Positions 9,773 to 40,148 of a stretch of DNA of 40,148 bases are shown piece after piece. The DNA lies in the IMG/VR virus record IMGVR_UViG_3300009068_000073, positions 1-40,148 of that record; one strand, 5' to 3'. A program made the position numbers and the translations under genes. Source of the stretch: a virus. The notes under the pieces were generated by a model, which ran no database searches, had not been told where the DNA came from, and was given only the letters and a program-made list of their open reading frames with translations. Positions within the stretch are counted from its first letter, which is position 1. The number at the start of each line of letters is the position of its first letter.

Positions 9773-12700
9773 TATCTGTTAATCCTTTTTGTTTTCAAAG
9801 CTTCACTAGACGTTGTAGCTGGCACTATTCTCTTATTGAAAACAAGATCTTGTAATAAGTTGTTTTGTTTTTCATAAGTTACTATTGAACTGCCTAGATT
9901 TCTTTTTGGTTGTTGAACAGCTTGTTGTAAAGTTTCTTGAGTTACATTTGTTATTTGTGGTGTATTATCACCTTCTTTATTAATAAATGTGACTTCTGCT
10001 TCTATCTTAGCTAATTCTACTAGAGAGAAATAGTCATAAGGCCAGTTATATGAGTAAGAAAGATTTATGTCTTTAATGATGCTATCTTCTGCGTTCTTTC
10101 TTCCAAGTTTGAGAAGATTATTGATTCTCTTCTTTTCTTTCTCTTGTATTGAAGTTAAAACTCTTTCATAATAATTGTTTTTGGCTTTTTGTTTAACCTT
10201 GAATACCATCCACTTCAAATTATCTGATAATTTTGTTTTATCTATTAATTCATTAGAATCTAATTCATGTTCAATGGTATAATTTTGTTTGTCAAACTCA
10301 ACTGAAATGTTTGGTTGTACACCTTGCCAAATTTTAATTAAATCATCTTGTGTCAAATTGTAAGTAAACTCAAAGATGTACATAGCAATTGGATTTATGT
10401 TTTCGTTATTAATAAAATCATATTTTGGAGGTATTACATAATTTTTCATTTTATCAATTTGAGATTTTACAGTATCTGGAACACTAGCATTGGCAATTGC
10501 TTGTGCTGTTTGGGTTTGAAGGTTTTTGCCAAAGAATTGATTTCTTACATAATTAACTGCATTTTCATTTAGATCAATGTAATTTATGTTGTTATTTCTA
10601 TCGATTGTATATGGTATAGCAACAACAGCTTCCTTAACTTGTTTGGTATTTGCTACTTGTCCAAGCTTGACAGGAGTTTTATTGAATCCAACTATGTCTG
10701 AAAGTGAAGCAGTTAGTTGAGGAACTGAATTTTCAGAAGGAGGACTGATAGGATTTGTATAAACACCATTTAAACCTTTCAAAATATAAGATTCTGGCAC
10801 ATCCATTACTTGTAAATAAATACCTTTATCGTCATCTGGCAATTGTCCAAATTGATGCCACATACCAACAGTTGGAACTTTGGAACCAGATTGAATAGTT
10901 ACACCAGTTTGTGATGGATCAAAATTAAGAATAGGAGTTTCAAATTTTGTTTGAATTCCCCAAACTTTAGATGCGGCTTCTGTTAGAGATGAATCTGTAT
11001 TTGTTAAAGAAACGTCTTGAGTATTAACAATGTTAAACAAATTTAATGAAGCTGTTACTTGCATTGAGTTTTGATTTATTCTAGAAGCAAAATATGGACC
11101 ATCTGTGTTGGTGCCAAATCTAGAGGGTAATTCAAATCTTACATACGAAGAAGTTATGTTATTTATTATTTCTTGTAATGTAGGTTTATATTTGTTAGAA
11201 CCGCTTGGTTTAAATGTTAATAATGCCCAAGAAGAACCATCATAGTATGGTGGAGTAAAACCAGGATTATAACCAGCATTAGTGTCTGTACTATAAAGAG
11301 TTCCAACACCTTCGAAACTAGAAGTTACAACACCACCAGCAGAACAAGGAGGACCAAATCCTGTAGGTCTGCTGTACATAGTTATGGTTTCTACAGATGA
11401 AGAAGGATACTCTGGTTTTACATAGGATAATCTATCAGCTCTTGATACACCGTAAAAATCTTCATAAAATTCTACGTTATCTGCTGTTTTGTAAATTTTA
11501 ACTACAGCTCTGTATTCAAGATTTGGATCAACTTCTTTAAATTCTGTTTCTGGTTTTGAAAATACAGTTGTTAATTTTCCATCTGGTAAAAAGAAATTAA
11601 TACTTTCTGCTAAGAAGTTATTCATAGCAAATTTATAAAGATTATTTGAGTACTGACCTGTCCAAGAACCTGTAACATTTAATGAAGCAGAAGGATGTGG
11701 TTCCATATCTATAATATCTGTAGTCAAATAATTTTCTGGCTCAATAAGAGTTTCAAATGGTAATCTTTTGTGAAAAAAGTTATTTTTTATTTGATATGAT
11801 AATTCGGTATTAACTGAACGAGTAAGGTAGAAACTTCCAGTAGTGGTTAAACTACTAGTTAAGATTGGATAATCTACAGCTATACCAGATTTTATTGTGT
11901 TAAACAAAATACCTGGAGCAAACATAGGCGTTAACAAAGTCCTAAAGTCTCTTTGATTTGTTGATGCTGTGTTTTGACTATCAACCCAGAACTTAGAATA
12001 ATCTTTAATTGAGTTAGCAAATTTGTCTGCTAGTTTAACAGTTTGGTATTGTGGATAAAGTTCTGGTTTTGGATTTAATTTTATTATTGCATCGCAAGAT
12101 AAAGTTAATTTAATTTTATCTGTAGCAGAATTTAAATCTTGTTTAATTTTAGAAATATTTGTAATAGAATCTGATTTCACAAAAGAATCAAAGAACTGTG
12201 ATCCAGTAGTATCAGTTATCGTAGAACCTGTTAAAGATAATGAATTTAAATAAGCATTATCTAATTCATTTCTTTGTACAGCAAGAATTTTTTGATCATC
12301 AGAAATAATAAACTCTGGAATTATTGAATAGTCTTTTTCAATTGATCTGATTTTTTCAAACCATTTATCATAAGAATCTTCGTATGGTCCATTAGTATTA
12401 TCTGCTGTTTGCCATTTTGTTGTACCATCAAACAAGCCATTAGTTACAATAATTTGTGTATTGGATTGACTAAATGGAAGAATTGCACTTATTGCTTGTT
12501 TGTTCTTGTAACTTTCAATTGAAGTGTTCATGTGTTTGTGTGCGTAAAGAACAGAAGCAGTAATTCTAGTTTGAGTTCCAAAGTGAACAGAAGAGTAAGC
12601 ATTTTGTAGTACACCTTCGCCACCAGTAGAGCTACTAAGTGAAGATGAACTATTTAAAGCGTTGTCCATAGGCCAGATACTTTGTTTTGATATCAAAGTG

Positions 12701-15700
12701 CCTGTAATATTGAAGATAGAAGTTTGATTATTTATATTTCTATCTGTTCTACTGTCTCTCCAAGCAGAAAATATATAATTATTTCTCTTTCTTCCTTCAA
12801 GTAAGCTTTTCAAACTTTTTCTTGGATAAATTGAATTACTGACTTTTAGATTGACTAATTTATATTTTGAATTATTTGAAAGCAATGTTACAACTTTTTC
12901 ATAGAAAGTTTCATTGTAATTTGTAAATTCTAAGTTCTTATCTAAATTATCATTTTCAAATGCTTGTAAAAGATTTTGGTAAGGATAAGTAAATTTTACA
13001 ACTTGTCCATTTGTTTCATTTTTTACATTTGTAGTGAATGGAGCATTAAAGTAAACTACTGGTTCTTTTTCGTAAACTTCTTGATTACCATTTTGAATTA
13101 ATAAATAATTTGTTTTATTTAATTTTCTTACAAGTTTGTGTTGACCAACTCTAGTTTGTTTGATTGTTGAAAACCCTGTTGCTCCATTTCTGTTAGACAT
13201 AAGAGCATTAAAATAGAAAGGATGATCATAAGTGGAAATACTTGTTATTAAAGTACCAGTTACTTGTGATAGTTGTGTAGATCCTAATGTGTTATATGAA
13301 CAAGAATCAAACACAATTGTATTTAATCCAACAAAATCAACAGGAATTGGTTTTGTTGGAGTACCAAGGAAATAGTCTCCCAACAATCTGTATCCAGAAT
13401 CATCATAACTATTCTGTGACGAAGCAGTTATAAATAATGAATTTTCATAATATGATAATGTTGAACCCGTTGGAATTGTATAATTATTGTTTATTGTTCC
13501 AAAAGTTCCAGAACCATTAGCTGCAACAATCCAAGAATAACCAGTTTCTTTTCTTGGAATTGTATGAGATACAAAACCGTTATCATAGCTACTAGTTAAT
13601 GTAGCTTTTAATATTGGATTTCTATTAGTCTTATGTAAAGATGCAACTAAACCATTACTACCAGATACGGTTCCACCAAAATCTGTATAGTATGCTACTA
13701 AACTATTTAAATCTCTTCTAGAACCAGAAACTATTTCTGGAATGTATTTTGAATCACTTATACCACCTCTAACATCTCTATTACCTCTACCTGTTCCTAT
13801 TATTTCTCTATTTTTAAATGGTAAAGCATTATAAGGTGAAATTTCTTCTGCATATTTATTCATATAACCAACAGACATAGTTCTGCGCTCACCAGGGGAA
13901 GAAAAACGTGTAATAACTATAGATTTATTTGCAGTTCTTGGTTGTAATTCAAAATCAACTTTACCAGTAGTTGTATTTGTTCTAACAACACCTTCCAGTT
14001 CGGTTATGTTGTTTGGATTAGTTACTTCAAGAATATTTCTATTATTTGTTGTAGAACCAAAAGAATGTACAATTTCATAAGTATTTGAATAATTACCTAA
14101 AACAGCAGAACCAGTTGTTGTTTGAATATTTCTAATGTTTACAGGTCTTTTTGCTGTTTCTTCTCTGAGATAAGTTGCTCTCAAGTGAGCACGAACAGGA
14201 TAAGAAGGACTATCTGGGTTACCTTCTGGAAATGGATAATCTGCGCCTACCATTCCAAGTACTGTTTGGTAAGAACCAGAAAAGCTTCCAGTTCCTAGAA
14301 GTATTTTCCAAGCTTCTGCTCTATTAAGATAGGTGTCTCCACCAGTATTTAAATTAACGTGTCTTGATTGACGACCACCAACCCAAGCGTTTGTAAATGG
14401 ACCTTGAACTGGTACTTCGTTCATGTAACCATATGTATCATTATGAATGTTGGTTATTATTGCACCATTCATAAACTCACTTGATACTTGAGCTTGATAA
14501 CCACTATTATCTGTGCCGCTAATAACATTTATTGGTAGTGCTATTTTGCTGCTTAAAATTTCTCCGTAACCAAGAGATGAAGATAAATAATCTCTTCCAT
14601 GTACCGTATTAAAATAATATTTAATCTTTTTGTTTGGGTCTGTTACATCATTACAATTTTGAATTAATGAAGAAGTTCTTTCAATTAATGAAACGAGATA
14701 ATTTGCTGGAACATTGATGATATCGTCTGTATCTAAAGGACCGTGGGGAGCAAGAGCGATTGAAGAAAAATCTATGTTTTTATTTGCTTCAAAGTTTACA
14801 CCACCTTTGATTTGTTTTGATTGTTCAACGTCAAATCTATATGTTGTTGTAAATCTTCTATTTAAAGCTTGTACAGAAGTTGATAGTATTGCTTTTCTTG
14901 AATTGTTTGCGGCAGCGTTTGATGAGGAGATTGGTGATACATCACGTTCAGCTCTTTGATTCCAATAAAGACAATTATTATTTTCATTATTTGATAGTGG
15001 TCTATGACCAGTTTTCCAATCGTATAAGTGCTTATTAATTGATTGAGCACCAGCTTCTATTACTGGTAATTTAAATTCAATTGTTGGAAACTTGTATTGT
15101 ACTTTGTTTCTTTCAAATGCATGGCTTTCAATTACGTTCAACAAACCTTCGCTAGAATTTGCAGATGCTGGCACTAATTGAAATAAAAATTTACCTAATG
15201 CACTATCGATCCACTTATAAAAATCTAAGTATTTATCAAGATCTGGTTCGTTCTGAACTTTATCAAAGAATAGTTGTCTCAATTTACTTAAAGATTTATG
15301 TTCTTTTCTGTATTTGTTTACTGGTTCACCAACAAGATTATTGAAGTCAAGAATTGTACTAAACATTTTAAGCATTTCTTCGCTTATTGTTTGATACATA
15401 CTTTTTTCAAAGCTAAAGAAGTAGTTTATTGGTCTTGTTTGTTTTGTTAATACTTCAATTTCTTCAGAATCTAAAATATTGATTAAATCAGAGTTTCTTA
15501 AATCTTCAAATTGTGTTAATCTTGAAGAGAATACGTATTGTGTATCAACAACATCTGTTTTGTTTGGTAAGAAGAAATCACCTCTAGCAGTATATTGATA
15601 GTTGCTTAAGGTGTTAAAAGCTTGATTATAAACTGAAGAACCAACCGATCCAGATGTTAAATCTTGTATATCAAAACCAGCGTCAGATACTGCTGGAATT

Positions 15701-18426
15701 CCAGAACCATTATCTGAACCTGTTATTAGATTAAAATTCCAATCTACTAATAATGTTTTGATTTTTGGTATTGATACATTGTTAAATTTTGTTAATGTAG
15801 AATTTTCCAAAGCATCTGCAATACCATAGCTGTAAGGATCTGATGCGTGGTTCGTTAAGTCATCATAAGATAAGTCACTAGACCATACTTTAAATCCTAA
15901 TGCTTTTATGTCTGATTGTTTGACCAAAGAACCAGTAAAGTTTACACGTTCAGAACCAATATAAAATCTTTTATTTTGTGAAAGAGCGTTTATACCTTGA
16001 GTGTTTGTTAATGAGGAAGTTAAAACAAATTGATTTTTAACAGTATTACCTACAGCATTAACACCATAAAAATGCAATGTATAAAGAGTGTCTAAAGTAC
16101 CAGAAACTAGTGTAGAATCAACATCGTTTGGAGTAATTTTAACAGCAAAATTCCATTTCTCATTGTTGTAAGTGTTGAAGTAAATAGAAGATGTTAATTG
16201 AACACCAAAGTAAGATGATGAAGCTACAAAGTAAACATCATTAGATTCTAATTCTGTTCTTACGGCACTTACTTGAAAGTCAAAATACTGTGGACTTGCC
16301 CAAGTAAAATTACTTGAATTAGATACAGCACCATGAGCACCAAAAATAGATGATGTTAAAAATGGAGTAGGGAAGTAACCTACGTCAGCTTGTGTAAGTT
16401 TTTTAGAAAATACTACTTCTATTTCTGCACTTAAAGGCAAATAAGCGTATGCAGACGATCCAGTAACATAAGAAATAGAATTTGTATTAGATGCAATTGA
16501 ACGTTGGTAGATTGAGGAATTAAATCTATCTGGATCATTAAATGATACTGATTTCTTTTTTGCAGTTATGTTTTTGTAGTTATCTTTGACTGTGTTAAAA
16601 TCATTGTTTGAATAAACATGAAATTTAACAATCTCTTCGTCTATACCAAAACAACGTATTAAGTTTCTAAAAGATTTTTCTGTTCCTTTAGATTTGAAGA
16701 TGTTTGTTATGTTTGAGTAAATGTTTTGATAAATTATGTTTTTTATTTCATTTAATTTATCTTCGTATTCAATTTCATCGTTTCTAGACAGAACTTCTTC
16801 TACAAGTCTTGCATCAACAAATAGGTTTGGAGCAACTAAACCAGTAGATTCCAACAACATTTGAGAAAATGGATATGGTTTTTCATCTATTTGTATGTTG
16901 GTATAGTGATCTTTTAGGGAAGTGAAATACTTTATTTGTAAGTAAAGAGTATCAAGATAAGATGCAGCTATTTGTGTGATGTTTAATAACTCACCATCTT
17001 CATCTTCATCTACTATCCAATTTGGAAAAGAATAGTAGAGAGTGTTTGGATTTTTAACGTCATGGTCTACACCAATTGATTCGTAAGTTGTAGTTACATC
17101 AGTAATACTTGGGTGTTGTGAATAAATAATTGGATCTGGTTCTTCTGATGATAATTGTTTTGTTGTAAATTCATTAATTGCTGATCCTGTATTTCTTGAT
17201 ACGGAAGAATAACCAACCCAAGTACCATTTGATACACGACCAGAATAATCTAATACTATTGAATCAACAGATGATGTAGTTGTTATACCTTCATTAAATT
17301 TGTAATAAACACCTAAATCAGTATTTGCATCATCTGTATTGGTTCCACCACCAACGTAGGTCCACCAATTTCTACCAATCTCTCTATCTGTTTTTTCTGT
17401 TTTCCAGTATCTAAATTCATCAATAGAACCAGAAAGCTTACCCCATCCTAATCCAACGCCAGAAACGCCAGAGGGAGCAGTTCTTAGAGCACCAAGATTT
17501 GCTACCAATCCACCTGTTACATCGCTTATGGCTGTTCCCAATGCGTAAGATGAATTAAGATCACCATTTACATAAAAATTAACATTAATTGAACTTGCAG
17601 AATTTGCTAACGAAACAGCGTAATGGTTCCACAAAGTTGAAGCAACTGAGGAAGTGGTTACTGATGTTCCTATGTTTTGTTGGAAAAAACCAGCAGTACC
17701 AGATTGTGCAGTAAGATAAAATGGAGAAACTGTATTTCCAGAAAGTTCCAATGTCAAACGACCATAACCAGCACTTGAAGAAGCCACACCGTTCCATAAA
17801 TCAAAAATTACTTCTTTTGCTGTACTTGATGTAATGAATGAATTCTTTTTTAACCAAAATTCTAAAGTAACACCACTACCACTTAAATTAAATTTTAAAT
17901 TAGAAGTTCTATTATCAGCAACATTATAAATGTTAGCTTTTTGATTTTGATTGCTTAAATCTGTAAATGCATCTTTTAAAGAAGTCGTAGATGGTTTATT
18001 GTTTGGTCCAGATTTAATTACAATGTATTCTTTAGTTGTTGGATTACCATAACCAGAAATTGATGATAGTTGAGTGGACCAGCCAGAAGGTGAAAAAGTT
18101 CCATAACCAGTAGTTCTTGGATATGCATTTTCATAAAACCAAATGTCCAATAAAGAAGAAGAATTGTACCAATCTATTTTTTCTTTTTTAGAACCATCAT
18201 ATGGGTATTGTTGATAAATTCTTTGTATTGAATCTTGATAGTATTTTTTTGCAGAACCAAAAATTGCAAAATTAGAAGCAGTAGCATAATTAACCGCAAA
18301 TTCTATTCTATTTTGTTGAATAGTTTGAGATTCTAGTAATTGTGGTGATTCTAATTCTTCAGCAATTTGCTCATTAGAAATTGGTGCTAATACTTTTTTT
18401 ACTTGAAATAGGTCTTTAAGGCTCAT
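9772..18426 (-). CDS. giant baseplate/tail protein with two LamG-like domains (2884 aa)
   Basis: At 2884 aa this one gene fills over a fifth of the window. Residues ~180-405 form a concanavalin/LamG-like sandwich: VTLEFWLKKN, LWNHYAVSL, VNFYVNGDL, then the family's typical closing pattern GSIDEFRYWKTEKTDREIG and LGVYYKFNEG. Residues ~545-605 hold a helical KSKGTEKSFRNLIRCFGIDE segment that recalls P2 gpI-type baseplate proteins (a [KR]-x-KGT-x3-S/A-[FI]-R motif). A second LamG-like region spans ~665-870 (KWNFAVKITP, ALGFKVWSSDLSYDDL). The C-terminal ~200 residues are charged and helical, probably coiled coil. LamG folds bind glycans or pack in fibres. The position after gp25- and gp6-like wedges matches wedge proteins of T4 gp7 type or a baseplate-anchored receptor-binding scaffold. 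The start overlaps the upstream gene by 11 bases. Confidence 0.75.
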   Translation of the reverse strand: MSLKDLFQVKKVLAPISNEQIAEELESPQLLESQTIQQNRIEFAVNYATASNFAIFGSAKKYYQDSIQRIYQQYPYDGSKKEKIDWYNSSSLLDIWFYENAYPRTTGYGTFSPSGWSTQLSSISGYGNPTTKEYIVIKSGPNNKPSTTSLKDAFTDLSNQNQKANIYNVADNRTSNLKFNLSGSGVTLEFWLKKNSFITSSTAKEVIFDLWNGVASSSAGYGRLTLELSGNTVSPFYLTAQSGTAGFFQQNIGTSVTTSSVASTLWNHYAVSLANSASSINVNFYVNGDLNSSYALGTAISDVTGGLVANLGALRTAPSGVSGVGLGWGKLSGSIDEFRYWKTEKTDREIGRNWWTYVGGGTNTDDANTDLGVYYKFNEGITTTSSVDSIVLDYSGRVSNGTWVGYSSVSRNTGSAINEFTTKQLSSEEPDPIIYSQHPSITDVTTTYESIGVDHDVKNPNTLYYSFPNWIVDEDEDGELLNITQIAASYLDTLYLQIKYFTSLKDHYTNIQIDEKPYPFSQMLLESTGLVAPNLFVDARLVEEVLSRNDEIEYEDKLNEIKNIIYQNIYSNITNIFKSKGTEKSFRNLIRCFGIDEEIVKFHVYSNNDFNTVKDNYKNITAKKKSVSFNDPDRFNSSIYQRSIASNTNSISYVTGSSAYAYLPLSAEIEVVFSKKLTQADVGYFPTPFLTSSIFGAHGAVSNSSNFTWASPQYFDFQVSAVRTELESNDVYFVASSSYFGVQLTSSIYFNTYNNEKWNFAVKITPNDVDSTLVSGTLDTLYTLHFYGVNAVGNTVKNQFVLTSSLTNTQGINALSQNKRFYIGSERVNFTGSLVKQSDIKALGFKVWSSDLSYDDLTNHASDPYSYGIADALENSTLTKFNNVSIPKIKTLLVDWNFNLITGSDNGSGIPAVSDAGFDIQDLTSGSVGSSVYNQAFNTLSNYQYTARGDFFLPNKTDVVDTQYVFSSRLTQFEDLRNSDLINILDSEEIEVLTKQTRPINYFFSFEKSMYQTISEEMLKMFSTILDFNNLVGEPVNKYRKEHKSLSKLRQLFFDKVQNEPDLDKYLDFYKWIDSALGKFLFQLVPASANSSEGLLNVIESHAFERNKVQYKFPTIEFKLPVIEAGAQSINKHLYDWKTGHRPLSNNENNNCLYWNQRAERDVSPISSSNAAANNSRKAILSTSVQALNRRFTTTYRFDVEQSKQIKGGVNFEANKNIDFSSIALAPHGPLDTDDIINVPANYLVSLIERTSSLIQNCNDVTDPNKKIKYYFNTVHGRDYLSSSLGYGEILSSKIALPINVISGTDNSGYQAQVSSEFMNGAIITNIHNDTYGYMNEVPVQGPFTNAWVGGRQSRHVNLNTGGDTYLNRAEAWKILLGTGSFSGSYQTVLGMVGADYPFPEGNPDSPSYPVRAHLRATYLREETAKRPVNIRNIQTTTGSAVLGNYSNTYEIVHSFGSTTNNRNILEVTNPNNITELEGVVRTNTTTGKVDFELQPRTANKSIVITRFSSPGERRTMSVGYMNKYAEEISPYNALPFKNREIIGTGRGNRDVRGGISDSKYIPEIVSGSRRDLNSLVAYYTDFGGTVSGSNGLVASLHKTNRNPILKATLTSSYDNGFVSHTIPRKETGYSWIVAANGSGTFGTINNNYTIPTGSTLSYYENSLFITASSQNSYDDSGYRLLGDYFLGTPTKPIPVDFVGLNTIVFDSCSYNTLGSTQLSQVTGTLITSISTYDHPFYFNALMSNRNGATGFSTIKQTRVGQHKLVRKLNKTNYLLIQNGNQEVYEKEPVVYFNAPFTTNVKNETNGQVVKFTYPYQNLLQAFENDNLDKNLEFTNYNETFYEKVVTLLSNNSKYKLVNLKVSNSIYPRKSLKSLLEGRKRNNYIFSAWRDSRTDRNINNQTSIFNITGTLISKQSIWPMDNALNSSSSLSSSTGGEGVLQNAYSSVHFGTQTRITASVLYAHKHMNTSIESYKNKQAISAILPFSQSNTQIIVTNGLFDGTTKWQTADNTNGPYEDSYDKWFEKIRSIEKDYSIIPEFIISDDQKILAVQRNELDNAYLNSLSLTGSTITDTTGSQFFDSFVKSDSITNISKIKQDLNSATDKIKLTLSCDAIIKLNPKPELYPQYQTVKLADKFANSIKDYSKFWVDSQNTASTNQRDFRTLLTPMFAPGILFNTIKSGIAVDYPILTSSLTTTGSFYLTRSVNTELSYQIKNNFFHKRLPFETLIEPENYLTTDIIDMEPHPSASLNVTGSWTGQYSNNLYKFAMNNFLAESINFFLPDGKLTTVFSKPETEFKEVDPNLEYRAVVKIYKTADNVEFYEDFYGVSRADRLSYVKPEYPSSSVETITMYSRPTGFGPPCSAGGVVTSSFEGVGTLYSTDTNAGYNPGFTPPYYDGSSWALLTFKPSGSNKYKPTLQEIINNITSSYVRFELPSRFGTNTDGPYFASRINQNSMQVTASLNLFNIVNTQDVSLTNTDSSLTEAASKVWGIQTKFETPILNFDPSQTGVTIQSGSKVPTVGMWHQFGQLPDDDKGIYLQVMDVPESYILKGLNGVYTNPISPPSENSVPQLTASLSDIVGFNKTPVKLGQVANTKQVKEAVVAIPYTIDRNNNINYIDLNENAVNYVRNQFFGKNLQTQTAQAIANASVPDTVKSQIDKMKNYVIPPKYDFINNENINPIAMYIFEFTYNLTQDDLIKIWQGVQPNISVEFDKQNYTIEHELDSNELIDKTKLSDNLKWMVFKVKQKAKNNYYERVLTSIQEKEKKRINNLLKLGRKNAEDSIIKDINLSYSYNWPYDYFSLVELAKIEAEVTFINKEGDNTPQITNVTQETLQQAVQQPKRNLGSSIVTYEKQNNLLQDLVFNKRIVPATTSSEALKTKRINR

Positions 18427-32508: not shown

Positions 32509-33330
32509 TTACTCCTTATAAAAACAAATCTTTAACCCATCTTCTATATTAATTAATGGTGACCAACCAAGTTCTAACATTTTGCTTATATCTGCTTTTG
32601 TGTGTTTTACATCACCTATTCTTTCTGGTGAGCTTTTCCATTCTACCTTGTTGTACTTATTAATATAATCTTTAATATAATTCAATGATATAGATTTGCC
32701 ACTACCAATATCATAAAAATTTCCATTAAATTTATCTTTATAATTCATACAAAATATGTTTGCCCTAACAACATCATCAACATGAATAAAATCTCTTGTT
32801 TGTTCTCCATCACCATCAATTCTTAAAGGCTTATTTAACCTAATCATTTCCATCCAAGCAGAAACAGCAGTAGAATATGCTCCACCATATTTTTGATCTT
32901 CTGAATAAAGATTGTAATATCTTAAGCAAACTGTATCTAGTCCGTAAAGTTCTGAATAAAGTTTGCACTCTTGTTCTGATAGTAATTTATGTAATCCATA
33001 AGGAGATTTTGGTCCGTTTCCGTCCCCATAAATTGCAGAGGAAGAAGAAAATATAAATCTTTTAACTTTATTATCTTTTGCCCATTCTAATAATTTTGAA
33101 GTTGCTAATACGTTATGCTTCATCGTATAGCTTGGGTTCAGTACGGAATATTCAACGCTTGGTAACGCTGCTAAATGGAATACATAATCAAAATTTTTAT
33201 TCTTTGGTAGACAATCAGATATATCATGACCGTCCTTTAAATCAATACCAAATACTTCATAACCAGCTTCTTTTAGCTTGTTATATAACTTATTACCAAT
33301 ATATCCTTTATATCCTGTTACTAATATCAT
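32509..33330 (-). CDS. NAD-dependent nucleotide-sugar epimerase (GalE/Gne-like)
   Basis: The 273-aa protein is an extended short-chain dehydrogenase. MILVTGYKGYIG gives the NAD-binding GxxGxxG at residues 6-12, DGHDISD holds the adenine-pocket acidic residues, FSSSSAIYGDG supplies the catalytic Ser, and SPYGLHK the YxxxK pair (Tyr111, Lys115). LRYYNLYS and GDGEQTRDFIHVDDV are substrate-binding motifs typical of UDP-glucose/UDP-GlcNAc 4-epimerases. Length is shorter than GalE (~335 aa), mainly in the C-terminal part. It probably interconverts UDP-hexoses or UDP-HexNAc in the cytoplasm as a glycan precursor. It overlaps the GMD gene by 23 bases, a strong sign of co-expression. Epimerase versus dehydratase/reductase cannot be settled from sequence alone. 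Confidence 0.82.
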   Translation of the reverse strand: MILVTGYKGYIGNKLYNKLKEAGYEVFGIDLKDGHDISDCLPKNKNFDYVFHLAALPSVEYSVLNPSYTMKHNVLATSKLLEWAKDNKVKRFIFSSSSAIYGDGNGPKSPYGLHKLLSEQECKLYSELYGLDTVCLRYYNLYSEDQKYGGAYSTAVSAWMEMIRLNKPLRIDGDGEQTRDFIHVDDVVRANIFCMNYKDKFNGNFYDIGSGKSISLNYIKDYINKYNKVEWKSSPERIGDVKHTKADISKMLELGWSPLINIEDGLKICFYKE

Positions 33331-34288
33331 AATATTTTTTTAAGTCCTCTTCATACATCATAGCAGCTAATGATTTTAGATCTGTTTTAGGTTGCCAATT
33401 TAATATTTTATTTGCTTTTGAGGAATCACCAAGCAAATAAGGTACTTCATGTGGTCTAAACAGTCTTGAATCTATATCTACGTATTTACCAACACTTAAA
33501 CCAGCATGTTCAAACACTAGATTCAAAAAATGTCTTACAGAATATGCTTTGCCAGTAGCAATAACATAATCATCAGCTTTTTCTTGTTGCAACATTAGCC
33601 ACATAGCTTCAACGTAATCGCCAGCAAACCCCCAATCTCTAACTGCATCTAAGTTTCCAAGATAAAGTTTATCTTGTAATCCTAATTTAATTTTAGCTGC
33701 TGCCATAGTTATTTTTCTTGTTACAAATGTTTCCCCTCTTCTTGGAGATTCATGATTGAATAAAATTCCAGAACAAGTAAACATATTATACGATATTCTA
33801 TAGTTTCTCATTAAATTATGAGCAAAAACTTTAGCATTTGCATATGGAGATGCTGGTGTGAGTCTGCTTTCTTCATTGTATGGATAGTTTGGATTATCAC
33901 CAAACATTTCAGAAGAAGAAGCTTGATAAAATTTTGCATTTGGGCATATAGTTCTTACCGCTTCTACTAAATTCATAGTTCCCATTACAATAGTATTGAT
34001 TGTGCTTTGTGGAATATCAAAAGAAACTCTAACATGTGATTGTGCAGCAAGGTTATAAATTTCATCTGGCTTATATTTGTTAAGTATTCTGTACATACAT
34101 GATGGATCATCTAATTCAAAATACTCAAGTGCAAAATTTGCATGATTATAAAAATTATTAATTCTATCTGTACATAGTAAAGATGTTCTTCTTTTAAGAC
34201 CAACAACTTTATATCCTTTAGACAAAAGCAGTTCAGCCAAATAAGAACCATCTTGACCAGTTATACCAGTTATCAATGCAGTTTTCAT
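33308..34288 (-). CDS. gmd: GDP-mannose 4,6-dehydratase
   Basis: The 326-aa enzyme converts GDP-D-mannose to GDP-4-dehydro-6-deoxy-D-mannose with bound NADP, the first committed step of GDP-L-fucose synthesis. Family marks are complete: ALITGITGQDGSYLAELLL at the N-terminus, NLAAQSHVRVSF, QASSSEMFG (catalytic Ser/Glu near 125-127), SPYANAK (Tyr149, Lys153), FNHESPRRGETFVTRKI, DWGFAGDYVEAMWLMLQ and LFRPHEVPYLLGD (the GMD RP-x-EV motif). Length is typical of compact bacterial GMDs (~320-375 aa). The end overlaps the epimerase start by 23 bases, and the start overlaps GDP-fucose synthase by four (ATGA), so substrate and product enzymes are translationally coupled. Confidence 0.95.
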   Translation of the reverse strand: MKTALITGITGQDGSYLAELLLSKGYKVVGLKRRTSLLCTDRINNFYNHANFALEYFELDDPSCMYRILNKYKPDEIYNLAAQSHVRVSFDIPQSTINTIVMGTMNLVEAVRTICPNAKFYQASSSEMFGDNPNYPYNEESRLTPASPYANAKVFAHNLMRNYRISYNMFTCSGILFNHESPRRGETFVTRKITMAAAKIKLGLQDKLYLGNLDAVRDWGFAGDYVEAMWLMLQQEKADDYVIATGKAYSVRHFLNLVFEHAGLSVGKYVDIDSRLFRPHEVPYLLGDSSKANKILNWQPKTDLKSLAAMMYEEDLKKYYDISNRI

Positions 34289-35205
34289 TTAATTCCTCTA
34301 ATATTTGGGTAATTTAATGTAAACCAATTGCAAGTATTTGTCAAGGAAATATCAATATTGGTATAGTTATTTTTATCCCAACCCAAACCAATAAGCTTTG
34401 AATTATCTGATGGTTTTTTAAATTGGCCGCTTGGTTTAGAAACATCCCAAATAATTTTCCCATCGTATTGTAGTTTTGATGCTATTGATTCTGCAATTTG
34501 TTTAATCGTATACTCGTTAGTATTGCCAATATTGATTGGATTTTCATTATTATATTTTTCTAAAATAAACATTAATATTTTTGCCAAATCTTTTGAATAT
34601 GTAAATTCTCGTAACGAAGTTCCATTACCCCATAAAACAACATCTTCTTTATTATGTTTTGCTTCATATATTTTTCTTATAATTGCAGGGATAACATGAG
34701 AATTATTTAAATCAAAATTATCATATTCACCAAATAAGTTATTTGGTACAGCAGTAATGAAATTACAACCATATTGTTTTCTGTATGATCTTGATTGTAT
34801 ATCAATCATTCTTTTTGCATATGCATATGCAAAATTAGATTCATGTGGTGGGCCATTATGTATTTGTTCTTCTGTAAGCGGATAGGACACTATATCTGGG
34901 TAAACGCATGTACTTAGCAATGACAAAACTTTTTCAACTTTGTAAACCATTGAATAATGTAAAACATTTGTATTAATTTTAATATTTTCTGTATAAAACT
35001 GTCCAAGTTGTTCCATATTTGCTTTAACGCCACCAACTTTTGCGGCTAAATGAATTACTTTTGTTGGCTTTAAATGTTTAAACATATATTTAGTATCATT
35101 TTCACTTGTTAAATCGCAATTATCAGAAGAAGCATAAAAAGCATTAGGAGCAATATCTCTTAAAGCATTTCCCACCATACCAGTACCGCCAGTTATTAAT
35201 AACAT
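34285..35205 (-). CDS. fcl: GDP-L-fucose synthase (3,5-epimerase/4-reductase)
   Basis: The 306-aa enzyme turns the GMD product into GDP-L-fucose using NADPH. ITGGTGMVG is the nucleotide-binding loop, AAKVGGVKAN the family-specific substrate loop, LLSTCVYP carries Ser98 and Cys100, FAYAYAKRM carries Tyr127 and Lys131, and NNSHVIPA carries His170. All five correspond to E. coli Ser107, Cys109, Tyr136, Lys140 and His179 with a constant offset of nine, so the active site looks intact. WGNGTSLREFTYSKDLA is the late conserved motif. Ribosome-binding sequence AAGGA precedes the ATG. GMD immediately downstream and a fucosyltransferase-like gene upstream complete a fucosylation set. Confidence 0.94.
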   Translation of the reverse strand: MLLITGGTGMVGNALRDIAPNAFYASSDNCDLTSENDTKYMFKHLKPTKVIHLAAKVGGVKANMEQLGQFYTENIKINTNVLHYSMVYKVEKVLSLLSTCVYPDIVSYPLTEEQIHNGPPHESNFAYAYAKRMIDIQSRSYRKQYGCNFITAVPNNLFGEYDNFDLNNSHVIPAIIRKIYEAKHNKEDVVLWGNGTSLREFTYSKDLAKILMFILEKYNNENPINIGNTNEYTIKQIAESIASKLQYDGKIIWDVSKPSGQFKKPSDNSKLIGLGWDKNNYTNIDISLTNTCNWFTLNYPNIRGIK

Positions 35206-35215
35206 ATAAAATTCC

Positions 35216-35680
35216 TTATTTTTTAAATTTTTCTACACAATCATATACATAATCTGTGCATATTGCAAATGAATTATAGTCTTCGTAATCTCTAACTTGT
35301 TTCAATGATAGCAATGGAATAATACAATTTTCATTCATTCTGTTGTTTAAATCATGACACCATATAAATCCGTTACTTGTGAGAGTAAATCTATCATTTT
35401 CATGACAAAAAAACTTTAGTTCTTCCTTATAGTTCATAATAATTTGTAATGCTTCATATTCTTTTATATGAATCCATAAATTATCTTTTCTTTCTAACAA
35501 CCATTCTATTGATATTTCATATTGAGCAAAATCATGTCCTAAAAATAACTTATTGTTTTTCATTCTTAAATCTATTTCTACATCAAATCCAAGACTTATA
35601 CATTCATCTATATATTTTGGATTATTTTCTCTATTTTCTTCAATACCGTTAAGATTAGCCCTATGAGATATTACAATCAT
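35216..35680 (-). CDS. short GDPD-like phosphodiesterase-fold protein
   Basis: The 154-aa protein matches the N-terminal half of a glycerophosphodiester phosphodiesterase barrel. VISHRAN gives the His-Arg pair, ENNPKYIDECISLGFDVEID follows the E-N-x2-x2-A-x3-G-x-x-x-E-x-D pattern with metal-binding Glu35 and Asp37, and FLGHD gives His49. Whole GDPDs are about 240-300 aa with later catalytic residues, and this one stops well short, with an odd Cys/Trp-containing tail (GFIWCHDLN). It may be a degenerate domain, a genuine small variant or a non-catalytic binding protein. In a glycan operon, a glycerophosphodiester or phosphoglycan substrate is plausible (inference). A good ribosome-binding site (GGAG, six bases before ATG) sits in the end of the HAD gene. 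Confidence 0.68.
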   Translation of the reverse strand: MIVISHRANLNGIEENRENNPKYIDECISLGFDVEIDLRMKNNKLFLGHDFAQYEISIEWLLERKDNLWIHIKEYEALQIIMNYKEELKFFCHENDRFTLTSNGFIWCHDLNNRMNENCIIPLLSLKQVRDYEDYNSFAICTDYVYDCVEKFKK

Positions 35681-35992
35681 TTAAATCTCCTCTATTCTTT
35701 TGCTTCTATCTTCAACAAATAAATCATAATATGGTTTATCACATTTTAATTTATGAAACTTAGCTCCCCAAGCTTCAAGTTGATTTTTTGTAAAATCATA
35801 CCAATCAATACCACTTCTACTACCCCTAGCTGTCCAATATATTATTTTATTACCTTCATCAAATAAATGATTTATTTTTTGTATATTCTCATGATTTGGA
35901 ATAGCTTTTTTGTAATCTTTTTTTCCATCTAATGCTATTTCTTCCTCATAAAAACAAATTGTTTCATCTATATCAACGTATATTGTTTTCAT
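35681..35992 (-). CDS. small HAD-superfamily phosphatase
   Basis: The 103-aa protein has the HAD core without a cap domain. Its start, MKTIYVDIDETIC, holds nucleophile Asp7 and acid/base Asp9 (DxDxT), IIYWTARGSRSG provides the motif-II Thr54, and KPYYDLFVEDRS supplies the Lys and acidic pair that bind magnesium. Such small HAD proteins in capsule loci dephosphorylate sugar or polyol phosphates. Its start overlaps the end of the kinase-aldolase gene by 20 bases, so both enzymes are produced together and may act in sequence: the aldolase makes a phosphorylated product and the phosphatase removes or adjusts the phosphate (inference). Substrate unknown. Confidence 0.85.
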   Translation of the reverse strand: MKTIYVDIDETICFYEEEIALDGKKDYKKAIPNHENIQKINHLFDEGNKIIYWTARGSRSGIDWYDFTKNQLEAWGAKFHKLKCDKPYYDLFVEDRSKRIEEI

Positions 35993-37370
35993 TTAGCACC
36001 ATATTGATTCTATATTTTTCTTGTTCAAGATTTATTAATTTTTCTATCTGTTCAAGTGATAGAAAATTAGGAGTCAATCCACATTCAATAATTTTATTAT
36101 ATATTATATCATTTATTGACTTGTTACTTTTTTTGTTTACTGCTGCATCGGGGAATAGAATTCCATCGGTTTGCATTATATTTTTTATTTGTTTTTTTCT
36201 AGATAAAAGATATTTTTTAGATAAATAATTTATTTTTTTTGTTAAATTAAAGCTTTTTTCAAAACTCAAAGAAGAAGCAAATATGCCATGATTTTGAATA
36301 AAAATTATTTCTTTTTGTGATGAATTAAGATGATTTGATAAAATTGCTCCTGTATCAAAACCAGGTGTAACATAATTAAAATAAGAATAATTAAAATTGA
36401 AATATAATTCATCAATTACAGATTCAGCTTCAGTAGAACATAAAATAGTTAATAACTCTATTGGATGTGTATGTATAGTGGCTTTATTTAGATGTAAATG
36501 TGCATCCATCTCCATTGAAGGACGACCATAATTGAATAAACAAGTTAAAGGATGGTCTATTTTGTATATACAAAAATTTTCAAACATTTGAATATCTGCT
36601 AAATTAATACCAGAAGATGAAATTATCATCTTATCTTCAAATTTTAATGAAGTATTACCTCCAATATTTTGAGTTAATTTACTGTTTGAACCAATTTTTT
36701 TAGAATATTTTATAAAACTTAGAATTTTATTATAATTTTTCTTGATTAATTTAATCAAATTTGAATTTTTATTTGTTTTATCAATAAAAATTAGTTTAAT
36801 TATATCTTCTTGTTTTTTTGATTTTAATTTAACAATTTTAATTATAATGTCTGCGTATTGCTTTTGAGGTAATATGTATTTTTCTTCATCTGGTAATCTT
36901 TTTTTGATGGTTTCAATTACGTGTTCAACTGTATACCCTCTTTTTAGCGTATCTCTTTTTGTTTTCCATTCGGTTTTTAACATTTCATCAGTATCGATAA
37001 AAATTTTTACATCAGCTAAATCTCTTAATTCATTATCATAGAGAGTGTGTAAGCCTTCATATATGATAACATCTTTTGGTTCTAATGTTATTGGATCATC
37101 AAATAAGCCAGTATCATGATTATATAACCTTCTTTCAATTGGCTTCATGTTTTTTAATAGTTTTAATTGAGTCTTTTCTTCTTCAAGATTGTTAGCTGCT
37201 GGGTCTAGGTGTGTGAATCGTTTCCAATTATCGCTATACCTATCCCATCGGTGACAATCATCACCACTTATTATTAAAGAATTATTATAAATACAAGAAA
37301 TTAATTTAGATATAGTTGTCTTTCCTACACCAGAAGGTCCAGTTATTGATATAAGTTTACAACTTTTCAT
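35973..37370 (-). CDS. P-loop (uridine kinase-like) kinase fused to class II aldolase
   Basis: The 465-aa fusion begins with a P-loop kinase (~1-185): ISITGPSGVGKTTISKL is Walker A, LIISGDDCHRWDRY lies at the substrate Asp position, and IIYEGLHTLYD matches the uridine kinase/phosphoribulokinase Walker B area. A Lys/Asn-rich linker (~185-228) leads to a class II aldolase/adducin domain (~229-440): IGGNTSLKF, ISSSGINLADI, PSMEMDAHLHL (Glu287), IHTHPIELLTIL (His300, His302) and IQNHGIFAS (His361), the glutamate and three-histidine zinc set of fuculose-1-phosphate aldolase relatives. The most direct reading is one polypeptide that phosphorylates a small hydroxy-compound and then cleaves, condenses or epimerises it. 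It overlaps the oxygenase gene by 14 bases and the HAD phosphatase by 20. The substrate is not readable from sequence. Confidence 0.85.
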   Translation of the reverse strand: MKSCKLISITGPSGVGKTTISKLISCIYNNSLIISGDDCHRWDRYSDNWKRFTHLDPAANNLEEEKTQLKLLKNMKPIERRLYNHDTGLFDDPITLEPKDVIIYEGLHTLYDNELRDLADVKIFIDTDEMLKTEWKTKRDTLKRGYTVEHVIETIKKRLPDEEKYILPQKQYADIIIKIVKLKSKKQEDIIKLIFIDKTNKNSNLIKLIKKNYNKILSFIKYSKKIGSNSKLTQNIGGNTSLKFEDKMIISSSGINLADIQMFENFCIYKIDHPLTCLFNYGRPSMEMDAHLHLNKATIHTHPIELLTILCSTEAESVIDELYFNFNYSYFNYVTPGFDTGAILSNHLNSSQKEIIFIQNHGIFASSLSFEKSFNLTKKINYLSKKYLLSRKKQIKNIMQTDGILFPDAAVNKKSNKSINDIIYNKIIECGLTPNFLSLEQIEKLINLEQEKYRINMVLNENNIR

Positions 37371-38019
37371 AATATTCGCCTATTTCAAACTTTTTTTTGG
37401 TAGTTAATGAATAATCTTTTTTAGAATTATCAAAATCTTTTTTAGATATTATTCTAAAATCCATACTTATTCTGGTCTTATTTGTTTTGTTTATTAAGTT
37501 TCCATGTTTTAATTGATTGCCATTAAATTGAAATAAATTACCAAATTCTAATCTTGGTATTGGATGATAATCACACAAACCAACATTACTTTCACACCAA
37601 ACAGTATTTGTACCATACATTTTTGTTATTGGAATGATATAATTTATTTCTCCTATAGGATGATTAAACTCCGAGTCTGAATGGAACTTTCCAACAGCAA
37701 CATTGTTTGGTAAGTGTACCCTAAAAGTTGGGGTTTTTTGAAATAAAATTGTTTCAAACTTTAAGTTATTGTCTTTATTTATTAAATCAATAACAAATTG
37801 TTTATATAAATCTATAAACTCATTCCATCCATTATTTAACTTTTTATAAAATTTATTATGAAAAATTGTATTTGAATCTTCTCCAATTTCAAATATTTTG
37901 GAATATTCTATATCTTTTGGTGTTAATAAGTGTAAATCTTCTAATTCATTAAAATTATACAATTCTTGAATATGTTTTTTAAAATTAAAAACATCAGTAT
38001 TATAATCAGTTATTATCAT
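37357..38019 (-). CDS. StrG-like 2-oxoglutarate/Fe(II) oxygenase family protein
   Basis: The 220-aa protein has a double-stranded beta-helix oxygenase layout: VGKFHSDSEFNHP has the HxD pair (His113, Asp115), LKHGNLINKTNKTRISMDFR has the distal His172 and the 2-oxoglutarate-binding Arg183, and EINYIIPITKMYGTNTVWCE and IPRLEFGNLFQFNGNQLKHG are conserved connectors. I know this pattern from proteins annotated as 'streptomycin biosynthesis StrG', which occur in bacterial and viral sugar clusters; their substrates are unclear. Here it could hydroxylate or oxidise a sugar or lipid-linked intermediate (inference). The ATG overlaps the fucosyltransferase-like stop by four bases. The iron and co-substrate ligands appear intact. 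Confidence 0.78.
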   Translation of the reverse strand: MIITDYNTDVFNFKKHIQELYNFNELEDLHLLTPKDIEYSKIFEIGEDSNTIFHNKFYKKLNNGWNEFIDLYKQFVIDLINKDNNLKFETILFQKTPTFRVHLPNNVAVGKFHSDSEFNHPIGEINYIIPITKMYGTNTVWCESNVGLCDYHPIPRLEFGNLFQFNGNQLKHGNLINKTNKTRISMDFRIISKKDFDNSKKDYSLTTKKKFEIGEYYEKL

Positions 38020-38912
38020 TTACCATTATCCTCAAAATAAATATAGTTACCTGTATCAGAATTAGATATTAATTGATTTTCTTTATAAAAATAAATAAGT
38101 AAATTCTTTTTTATGGAAGAAGAAAAATATGAAAAATTACTATGTTTTTGAGACATTATTAATTTTTTACTATTTGATAGATAATACAAATCTAAATAAG
38201 TCTGTTCATAATCAAAATTAATTTCTGGAGTTTGTACTATATTACATACGTTTGATATTGCTTCATTGAAATACTTTTTTGTATCTTCACAGTCTGAGCA
38301 TATGTAAACATTGATCTTTTTATCTTCGTTTTTTTCAACTTCATTCAATATACATTTAATAGTTGTATTATTTAAATCCTGCAATTCGTTACTATGAATT
38401 TCTACAACATTAGGTAAATTATTCACCTTATCCGTTCTTCTAAGGTGAATAGCAAGATCAATGTCATCTTTTGTATTAAGTAAGGATGTTAATTTATCTT
38501 TAGGTGTGAATTGAGAAAGGCATTCATCGTGAAATTTATAAAACTCTAATTTATTTAAGTTATATTTTTCAGAAAATGTTTTTCTATTAAAAATTCCACC
38601 TAAATAATCATTAAAATAAAAAGAATACCCTTCTTTAGTTGCATTTTTGTCATCTAAAAAATATACATTATTAGGTAAATTATAATAGCTACACAAATTA
38701 TTCTTTAAATAATCTGACCATCTTGCTTTGGGCCATGTTCTTAATTGGAAATCATTAAAATGTAAATCTTTTTCACCTTCGGGCCAATACAAGTATAAAT
38801 CACAATTTATCATGTTTGCATATGCTGCTACTAAAAATAAATCTTGTAATCTATCACAAAGACCAGATTTTGTTACATTTGTCCAAATCATTTTTTGTCT
38901 TTTTTCCATCAT
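38016..38912 (-). CDS. putative fucosyltransferase (O-FucT/GT23-like fold)
   Basis: With ATG 38912 the protein is 298 aa. SGLCDRLQDLFLVAAYANMI (~16-35) is the G-x2-[DN]-R-[LI] motif that binds GDP-fucose in NodZ/FUT8-related enzymes, IHLRRTDKV (~155-163) is their H-x-R-x-x-D signature, and a later INVYICSDCEDTKKYF plus LYYLSNSKKLIMSQKHSNFS form the C-terminal nucleotide-binding half of a GT-B fold. A longer TTG start at 38924 is weaker: GGAG lies six bases before ATG 38912, which overlaps the upstream stop as ATGA. GDP-L-fucose from the linked enzymes would be the natural donor. The acceptor glycan is unknown. No membrane helix is seen, so it likely acts at the inner face of the cytoplasmic membrane. 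Confidence 0.76.
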   Translation of the reverse strand: MMEKRQKMIWTNVTKSGLCDRLQDLFLVAAYANMINCDLYLYWPEGEKDLHFNDFQLRTWPKARWSDYLKNNLCSYYNLPNNVYFLDDKNATKEGYSFYFNDYLGGIFNRKTFSEKYNLNKLEFYKFHDECLSQFTPKDKLTSLLNTKDDIDLAIHLRRTDKVNNLPNVVEIHSNELQDLNNTTIKCILNEVEKNEDKKINVYICSDCEDTKKYFNEAISNVCNIVQTPEINFDYEQTYLDLYYLSNSKKLIMSQKHSNFSYFSSSIKKNLLIYFYKENQLISNSDTGNYIYFEDNGK

Positions 38913-39724
38913 ATAATACTCCAATTTTCTGGTGTTGGGTTTGTATATATCTTAGTATCTCTATCATTTCTATTTAACAAATGTAAAAATTTGGGTTTAT
39001 TTTTTATTTTTTCATTAACAAAAGACAAAAAATATACTAAAACTGAGTAGCTTGAATCTATAAAATGAATTTCTTTAGCATTCTCTAATATACTTATTTG
39101 ATTAATCATGTTGTTTGATTTACCATTAATATAATAAGTAGGAAAATTTTTATTTATCATATTAATATTGTATCCACGACTAATATCATCGTGGACAACA
39201 ATGTATTCACTACCAATTGTAGAACAAACATAGTTATAGTTTTCACTTTCAGAAATAATTTCTCTAGAAATATAGAAACTATTTGTTCTAAATAAAAGTG
39301 GTATTTTATGATAATCATAAAATGCATGTGAAAAAGAAGAACCTTTAATTATTTCTTTTGATAAGAATTCTTGCCATCTTACAGTATCGTTGAAACAACC
39401 TATTTTTATATTTTCAAAATTATTATAATTTGTATAATCAACATATAAACATTTTGTATTGTCTCTTGGACAAGAAAATGGATTACCGATAGTCATACAA
39501 TTTAAACATGCACTTTTACCATCATATTTATTTGTTATATCTGGTATCTTGCACGTTATGTTGGGAACATCTTTATACATTTCTTGTATAACTCTTAATC
39601 TAGACTCTGATGATGCAAAAACAGTAAGTGTTTTAAACATTTGTGCATAATACATACAAATTGCGTTATTTGTAAATAAATCTCCAAAACCTTGGTGATG
39701 TATAATGGTTGCGTTACTTAACAT
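38909..39724 (-). CDS. glycosyltransferase-like protein with four-cysteine cluster
   Basis: The 271-aa protein has ATIIHHQGFGDLFTNNAICM near the start, resembling the H-x-G-x-GD nucleotide-sugar loop of GT-B enzymes, a YIVVHDDISRGYNINMI central strand, and HFIDSSYSVLVYFLSFV in the C-terminal half, a pattern seen in glycan-cluster proteins related to heptosyl-type transferases. Unusual are Cys73, Cys76, Cys85 and Cys92 (ACLNCMTIGNPFSCPRDNTK-C), which could bind zinc or an iron-sulphur cluster, although a disulphide or chance cannot be excluded. The start overlaps the nucleotidyltransferase end by 11 bases and the stop overlaps the fucosyltransferase start. Donor and acceptor are unknown. Confidence 0.6.
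   Translation of the reverse strand: MLSNATIIHHQGFGDLFTNNAICMYYAQMFKTLTVFASSESRLRVIQEMYKDVPNITCKIPDITNKYDGKSACLNCMTIGNPFSCPRDNTKCLYVDYTNYNNFENIKIGCFNDTVRWQEFLSKEIIKGSSFSHAFYDYHKIPLLFRTNSFYISREIISESENYNYVCSTIGSEYIVVHDDISRGYNINMINKNFPTYYINGKSNNMINQISILENAKEIHFIDSSYSVLVYFLSFVNEKIKNKPKFLHLLNRNDRDTKIYTNPTPENWSII
38919..38922 (-). promoter_or_regulatory. Shine-Dalgarno that fixes the fucosyltransferase-like start
   Basis: The sense strand reads TTGGAGTATTATATGATGG. GGAG is six bases before ATG 38912, and that ATG overlaps the upstream TGA (ATGA). The alternative TTG codon at 38924-38922 overlaps GGAG itself and would have no ribosome-binding site of its own. Confidence 0.65.
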
Positions 39725-40148
39725 AAGTTATATCATTTGTAATACTATATGGATGATATTCGCATTTATTAAAATAATCTCTCCAATAAATATAAGTTTT
39801 ATAATCATCGGGTGTACCCCAACAAATATAATTTTTAACTTCAAAAGCTCTAACTGTCAAGCCATTTTTTATATTTTGATTTAAAACGTCATCTACATAA
39901 AATTCACCATTAGTTGTTATGTTTTCATTAAGATTTTTATAAAATCCATCTAAAAAGTATTTTGCTTTTCTAAAGAACATTGTTCCAATAATTGCATGAG
40001 TCTTTAAAGGATCTTCATAAATAAACTTTTTGCAGGATACATGACGTATTTTATCATTTTCATCTACATCTAACCATGCATAAGAGTCTGGTTTTACTTT
40101 ACTTGTTTGACTGTTTCTAAATGTCCAAACAATAATATCATTTTCTAA
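39714..40148 (-). CDS. sugar-nucleotide nucleotidyltransferase, 5' end beyond window
   Basis: The frame stays open to the window edge (last complete visible codons read LENDIIVWTF...), and 144 codons remain before the stop. They show the C-terminal half of an NDP-sugar pyrophosphorylase: PDSYAWLDVDENDKI, the THAIIGTMFFRKAKYFL strand-turn (H-x-I-x-G-x-[MY]), TTNGEFYVDDVLNQNI and YICWGTPDDYKTYIYW, with the typical NGE[FY]Y-DD and WGTP-D motifs. These enzymes join a sugar-1-phosphate to a nucleoside triphosphate, releasing pyrophosphate. The specificity (mannose-1-phosphate, N-acetyl-sugar or other) cannot be told without the N-terminal half. An internal ATG at 39980 is not the start because the family match continues upstream. 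It is the first visible gene of the glycan operon. Confidence 0.85.
   Translation of the reverse strand, partial: LENDIIVWTFRNSQTSKVKPDSYAWLDVDENDKIRHVSCKKFIYEDPLKTHAIIGTMFFRKAKYFLDGFYKNLNENITTNGEFYVDDVLNQNIKNGLTVRAFEVKNYICWGTPDDYKTYIYWRDYFNKCEYHPYSITNDITYVK

Follow-up and report, generated by a model that had tools for sequence, protein, structure and literature searches.

Kinase-aldolase modules in aquatic phages: a candidate nucleotide-sugar cassette distinct from the GDP-fucose route

The 40,148-base IMG/VR virus record analysed here (the window) raises the question of what is made by a phage gene cluster in which a kinase is joined to a class II aldolase in one protein and lies near the genes for GDP-fucose. 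The gene order on the minus strand is a nucleotidyltransferase (NT) fragment, two glycosyltransferase-looking proteins, a 2OG-Fe(II) oxygenase-like protein, the fusion, a HAD phosphatase, a GDPD-like protein, fcl, gmd and an epimerase. The initial annotation had proposed that the fusion, HAD and GDPD build or recycle a small sugar or polyol phosphate for activation by the NT, so that a second product besides fucose was to be expected. The features relevant to this proposal were as follows.

39714..40148, minus strand: sugar-phosphate nucleotidyltransferase, C-terminal fragment, open at the contig end (phrog_3980; 58% to L008)
37357..38019, minus strand: 2OG-Fe(II) oxygenase-like protein, 14 bp overlap with the fusion (TIGR04324-like, 4.1e-8, under the cut-off)
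36780..37370, minus strand: kinase domain of the fusion, residues 1-197, phosphoribulokinase (PRK) family, Walker A GPSGVGKT (Pfam PRK 6.6e-44; PRK fold)
35973..36758, minus strand: class II aldolase domain of the fusion, residues 205-465, FucA type (Pfam Aldolase_II; FucA fold; residue map)
35681..35992, minus strand: capless HAD phosphatase, 103 aa (phrog_1238, 5.7e-26; PDB 9iqw profile, E 3.4e-17)
35216..35680, minus strand: predicted miniaturised GDPD-fold phosphodiesterase, 154 aa (phrog_34507; full-length model alignment; conservation)
33308..35205, minus strand: GDP-L-fucose synthase and GDP-mannose 4,6-dehydratase genes (NCBIfam gmd above the cut-off; GDPFucSynFcl below the cut-off)

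The kinase-aldolase fusion protein

The fusion ORF (35973-37370, minus strand) encodes 465 aa with two domains in one frame, which matched Pfam PRK at residues 6-181 (E=6.6e-44) and Aldolase_II at residues 223-386 (E=1.4e-13). The AlphaFold model was confident (pLDDT 92.7, pTM 0.90), with residues 2-265 aligning to the phosphoribulokinase 9qko (Z 24.3, 207 residues, 1.9 A) and residues 210-395 aligning to the fuculose-1-P aldolase 2opi (Z 21.5). The structure prediction called for in the initial annotation therefore matched the PRK and FucA folds, and Pfam, model and residues agree on the Walker A kinase and the aldolase with an intact Glu/His3 zinc set that had been described there. This confirms a genuine fusion of a PRK-family kinase with a FucA-type class II aldolase.

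In the window fusion, both Walker A and the zinc set E287/H300/H302/H361 are intact. A residue map to E. coli FucA placed the latter at FucA E73/H92/H94/H155, identifying H300, H302 and H361 as the zinc ligands and E287 as the catalytic Glu. Across 44 distinct fusions, the kinase residues G11/S13/G16/K17 of Walker A, D37, H40, R44, Y83, H85, K136 and R139 and the aldolase residues G238-N239, S253-G254, S285, E287, H300, H302 and H361 were invariant (44/44). A loss of the zinc or Walker A residues in most homologues, considered at the outset as the finding that would speak against the proposal, was thus not what the alignment contained.

In the phosphoribulokinase of Methanospirillum (MhPRK), residues H55, R59, Y98, H100, K151 and R154 bind Ru5P or ATP (PMC5241800). 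All six are kept in the fusion, corresponding to H40, R44, Y83, H85, K136 and R139 respectively. Three further kinase residues, W42, W49 and H54, were confined to the module among the sequences compared and are missing from the true PRKs in that set, and the kinase scored under the curated PRK07429 cut-off (203.9 bits against 236), so the kinase substrate may not be Ru5P. The residue comparison of kinases left out the L003 kinase row, which was out of frame. Uridine kinase was considered as an identity and rejected: E. coli Udk has Y, Y and R at the positions of fusion H40, H85 and K136, and the TIGR00235 score was 92.3 bits against 220.3.

For the aldolase domain, the DHAP phosphate site of FucA (N29, T43, G44, S71, S72) is incomplete, with S253 at T43 and M286 at S72; the second phosphate-site serine, S72, is replaced by Met or Ile in the module aldolases. 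The fusion fell below the curated FucA family TIGR01086 (20.5 bits against 400.25). An AraD (L-ribulose-5-phosphate 4-epimerase) identity was rejected, AraD having Asp at the position where all 44 fusions have E287.

Recurrence of the gene set in viruses and cells

Used as a single-protein query against viral contigs, the fusion found no relatives. Relatives were gathered with the HAD gene as bait and then with the fusion alignment. This search, suggested in the initial annotation together with a list of neighbouring genes, yielded ~55 IMG/VR viral contigs carrying the fusion, and removal of near-duplicates gave a set of 43 other viral fusion loci. An NT of ~275 aa followed the fusion directly or almost directly in 41/43, mostly with a 4-bp overlap. 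The exact order fusion-NT-HAD-GDPD was found in 23 of the 43, with GDPD close by in nearly all. The five-enzyme gene set occurs in many aquatic phages. The fusion is thus common in viruses and no substrate is known for it; a common fusion of known substrate had been the other finding expected to speak against an unusual route.

A second viral lineage carries the kinase and aldolase as separate genes, together with HAD, GDPD and a double NT, and all five were present in 30/30 loci obtained with an unfused-aldolase query. In the aldolase tree, the fused proteins formed one clade (support 0.896) and the unfused proteins another (0.998).

A standalone NT between the fusion and HAD is missing from the window. 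The NT fragment at the contig end is most similar to the C-terminal half of a double NT (58% to that half of the L008 protein), and a p38909-like gene follows it, as is also the case for the double NT. Read most simply, these sequences point to a double NT in the window phage that runs off the contig, and to a cluster pieced together from both viral lineages. The window NT being a fragment off the contig end, the gene activating the product lies largely outside the window. The sugar regions of phages are mosaic, and the window combines the kinase-aldolase fusion with a double-NT-like gene of the kind typical for the second viral lineage, which would suit a chance assembly of glyco-genes with no joint pathway. 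This explanation is highly improbable and largely refuted by the recurrence of the same five activities in ~90 loci plus bacterial and archaeal operons.

The cellular operons consist of a GT-C-like-kinase (one protein), class II aldolase, double NT, GT2, GDPD and HAD, often with GtrA. They were found on an E. coli IncR plasmid, on Hirschia and Azospirillum plasmids, in several Pseudomonadota genomes and in two archaeal genomes. The cellular GDPD was detected at E<1e-10 in 6 of 398 sampled Pseudomonadota genomes. No match spanning both fusion halves was found in these 398 genomes or in 87 genomes of the archaeal phylum (0/398 and 0/87); its absence from cells holds for this sample rather than for all genomes. 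Taken together, the occurrences in two viral lineages and in operons of bacteria and archaea support a single conserved unit of kinase, aldolase, HAD, GDPD and NT.

A kinase followed by a class II aldolase is a classic catabolic pair, as in FucK/FucA, RhaB/RhaD or the 5-deoxyribose DHAP shunt, and the deoxyribose-phosphate aldolase 6btg was also among the structural matches of the fusion (Z 20.1). The module could on these grounds convert a host ketose to DHAP and an aldehyde for central metabolism, with NT, HAD and GDPD as mere neighbours. However, these three are fixed neighbours in the viral, bacterial and archaeal loci, the gene set sits among glycosyltransferases, and no isomerase or transporter was seen alongside the module. 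A catabolic role is accordingly regarded as quite unlikely.

Several bacterial proteins labelled 'uridine kinase' or 'phosphoribulokinase' (L002 7897-9879, L003 7741-9885, L057 8759-10876) have an N-terminal membrane part of ~365 aa, weakly GT-C-like, that is hidden by the annotated names. The membrane part of the cellular kinase resembles GPI-mannosyltransferase-like GT-C proteins in a weak match (E 0.0097), and in one viral lineage the kinase is fused to a DUF7796 domain. The kinase being joined to GT-like domains elsewhere, it may have a role late in glycan assembly. It could act on a glycan or lipid-linked sugar, with the aldolase, HAD and GDPD supplying or trimming a separate precursor. 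Against this, the window lineage joins the kinase to an aldolase, a small-molecule enzyme, and the residues of the PRK pocket for small sugar phosphates are invariant; we consider such a division of labour unlikely.

The Synechococcus phages S-SM2 and Bellamy carry a double NT, GT61, class II aldolase, 103-aa HAD and GDPD. Their whole records had no PRK-family kinase over the cut-off, whereas control records did match, and 16 S-SM2-type contigs in the scan had no kinase near the module. The 4 records with psbA all lack the kinase; a search of kinase-bearing records, many longer than 80 kb, found no psbA. Among records >= 60 kb the association was 4/4 against 0/~30 (Fisher 2e-5, counts entered by hand); we attach no significance to it, as the kinase-less loci belong to a single clade, their aldolases grouping together with a support of 0.999. 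Cyanobacteria possess phosphoribulokinase. The host having its own PRK, the kinase-less cyanophages fit a kinase that makes ribulose-1,5-bisphosphate or a compound close to it. A supply of ribulose bisphosphate to these phages by host PRK is only suggested, as the single aldolase clade makes the argument rest on one loss.

The HAD and GDPD proteins and the neighbouring genes

The HAD gene (35681-35992) overlaps the fusion by 20 bp, and the 103-aa protein has the DxDxT motif, Thr, Lys and acidic residues of a HAD phosphatase without a cap, so both the gene overlap and the cap-less type held up as first described. D7, D9, T11, T54, K86, D90 and D95 were invariant in 14 sequences. The PDB entry 9iqw matched by the HAD profile (E 3.4e-17) is titled 'Capsule biosynthesis protein'. 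Cellular operons encode a capped HAD of another type instead, so that non-orthologous enzymes would fill the phosphatase role.

The label 'phosphoheptose isomerase' is attached to phrog_1238, to SSM2_207 in L156 and to the window HAD. This PHROG/GenBank name was rejected for the HAD, as the 103-aa protein corresponds to the HAD part only and has no isomerase part. In L004 a longer protein, judged by eye, has an isomerase-like part joined to HAD, and the label probably originates from isomerase-HAD proteins of this longer kind. At L004 8453-10103, an HpcH/HpaI-type aldolase and the isomerase-HAD fusion (by eye) adjoin a GDPD of the module family, possibly as another supply route.

The GDPD matched no Pfam family at E 0.1. 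Its model (154 residues, pLDDT 96.3) aligned over residues 1-154 to full-length GDPDs, including 7e0v (Z 11.6, 148 residues, 3.2 A), and contains the strands of the whole barrel with short loops. The half-barrel first described is thus replaced by what is, in the predicted structure, a complete miniaturised barrel. It has the GDPD family fold with the HR, ExD and HD active-site residues; H6, R7, E35, D37, H49 and D50 were invariant and K73 nearly so.

In a further set of loci, L106, L102, L039, L040, L004 and L159 (S-CAM9), the NT and a capped HAD phosphatase form one protein of 453-461 aa beside GDPD. NT, phosphatase and GDPD together look like a broader core that gained kinase and aldolase in some lineages. 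The bacterial variant L126 lacks kinase, aldolase and HAD; by eye, an aminoglycoside-phosphotransferase-like and inositol-monophosphatase-like protein (9732-11516) lies beside NT-NT, GT2 and GDPD.

Phage GDP-fucose genes are already known, for example in cyanophage S-SCSM1 (PMC9602691). The module is INDEPENDENCE from fucose: within ~9 kb, gmd and fcl were both present in 4/43 viral fusion loci, and neither was present in 32/43. There is thus no obligatory linkage of the module to gmd and fcl, and the GDP-fucose genes at 33308..35205 are a neighbouring, separable pathway. The rarity of gmd and fcl beside the fusion gives good support to the second product besides GDP-fucose that had been anticipated.

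The oxygenase-like protein (37357-38019) is a neighbour outside the conserved module, found near the fusion in 2/43 other fusion loci. It weakly matches the 'sporadic carbohydrate cluster' family TIGR04324. Its gene adjoins the module in L023 and L079, and kinase-less NT-HAD-GDPD sets in L039 and L040. The two glycosyltransferase-looking proteins between the NT fragment and the oxygenase-like gene matched no Pfam family. A 302-aa protein of the window (38016-38924) has an HLRRTDK motif recalling fucosyltransferases, without Pfam family support. By far the largest open frame of the window, of 2884 aa, is located at 9772-18426.

Proposed route and comparison with known systems

We strongly infer that the module genes form one joint pathway, and infer an NDP-sugar as its outcome; a ketopentose as the starting sugar and the order of the steps are guesses. 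There is about an even chance, in our estimate, that the cassette makes a nucleotide-activated small sugar for a phage-directed (in cells, host-directed) surface glycan, apart from GDP-fucose. The PRK-type kinase would phosphorylate a ketose phosphate at O1, most likely a ketopentose 5-phosphate, for instance D-ribulose-5-P, to give the 1,5-bisphosphate. FucA-type aldolases need a ketose-1-phosphate handle, and the fused zinc aldolase would therefore act on the kinase product, taking the ketose-1-phosphate via a DHAP-type enediolate with either a split to DHAP and glycolaldehyde phosphate or re-closure to another pentulose. The capless HAD would remove one phosphate, one or two NT domains would couple the remaining phosphate to an NTP, and neighbouring glycosyltransferases would use the final product. 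The mini-GDPD would hydrolyse a phosphodiester intermediate or by-product, a role with no match to known NDP-sugar chemistry. Of the initial proposal, the part that stands is that kinase, aldolase, HAD, GDPD and NT are one conserved unit, and the small phospho-sugar or polyol route to NT activation keeps its conditional form.

The polyol part of that proposal corresponds to a polyol or glycerol-like phosphate donor made by CDP-glycerol or CDP-choline logic, with GDPD salvaging the headgroup. GDPD, kinase and NT resemble the choline salvage set GlpQ-LicA-LicC, which combines these three activities, and the GDPD fold is supported by the predicted structure. However, the kinase is PRK-like and not choline-kinase-like, the aldolase is left without explanation, and the cellular operons with GT2 and a GT-C-like domain suggest a sugar donor. 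Such a donor is considered rather unlikely.

Within the preferred reading of a small-sugar cassette, a more specific route to a nucleotide-activated pentulose can be outlined, which we regard as improbable. Kinase and aldolase would yield ribulose-1,5-bisphosphate or an epimer, HAD would trim it, and the mini-GDPD, through a cyclic intermediate, would move the phosphate to the anomeric carbon, a move that would explain the two NT domains. Cyanophages would skip the kinase, the host Calvin cycle making the bisphosphate.

The results describe a compact biosynthetic module common to phages, bacteria and archaea, with a definite enzyme set and conserved active sites, so that the product of a recurrent 'hypothetical' phage genome region becomes directly testable. 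If the kinase is truly a phosphoribulokinase, phages would draw a Calvin-cycle metabolite into surface sugars. No published account of the module, the fusion or the 'sporadic carbohydrate cluster' was found in open-licence papers. The module would be a nucleotide-sugar cassette; the enzyme families are each known, and the five-enzyme combination and the kinase-aldolase chain appear undescribed in those papers.

Among known systems, class II PRK shares with the kinase domain its fold, Walker A and the six Ru5P/ATP-binding residues of the Methanospirillum enzyme. The window kinase differs in being fused to an aldolase, in W42, W49 and H54, in falling under the PRK07429 cut-off and in not being RuBisCO-linked. 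FucA, with its partner FucK, shares the class II fold, the zinc His3, the Glu73 equivalent, most DHAP phosphate-site residues and the kinase-then-aldolase logic. In contrast, the fusion has a kinase from another superfamily in the same chain, Met for S72 and an extra C-terminal segment, and the module is set among nucleotidyltransferase and glycosyltransferase genes. The class II aldolase of the 5-deoxyribose pathway (6btd/6btg) acts on C5-modified ribulose-1-phosphate and is a structural match (Z 20), but that pathway is a catabolic salvage without the NT, HAD and GDPD set. The sugar clusters of S-SM2 and Bellamy share the double NT, class II aldolase, 103-aa HAD and GDPD in one gene run; they are without the kinase, and their annotation ('phosphoheptose isomerase', 'hypothetical') gives no pathway. 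Finally, the GDPD/GlpQ family shares the whole-length fold and the His/Glu/Asp/His active-site residues, whereas the window GDPD is 154 aa against about 217-300, is below Pfam detection and lies in a biosynthetic neighbourhood.
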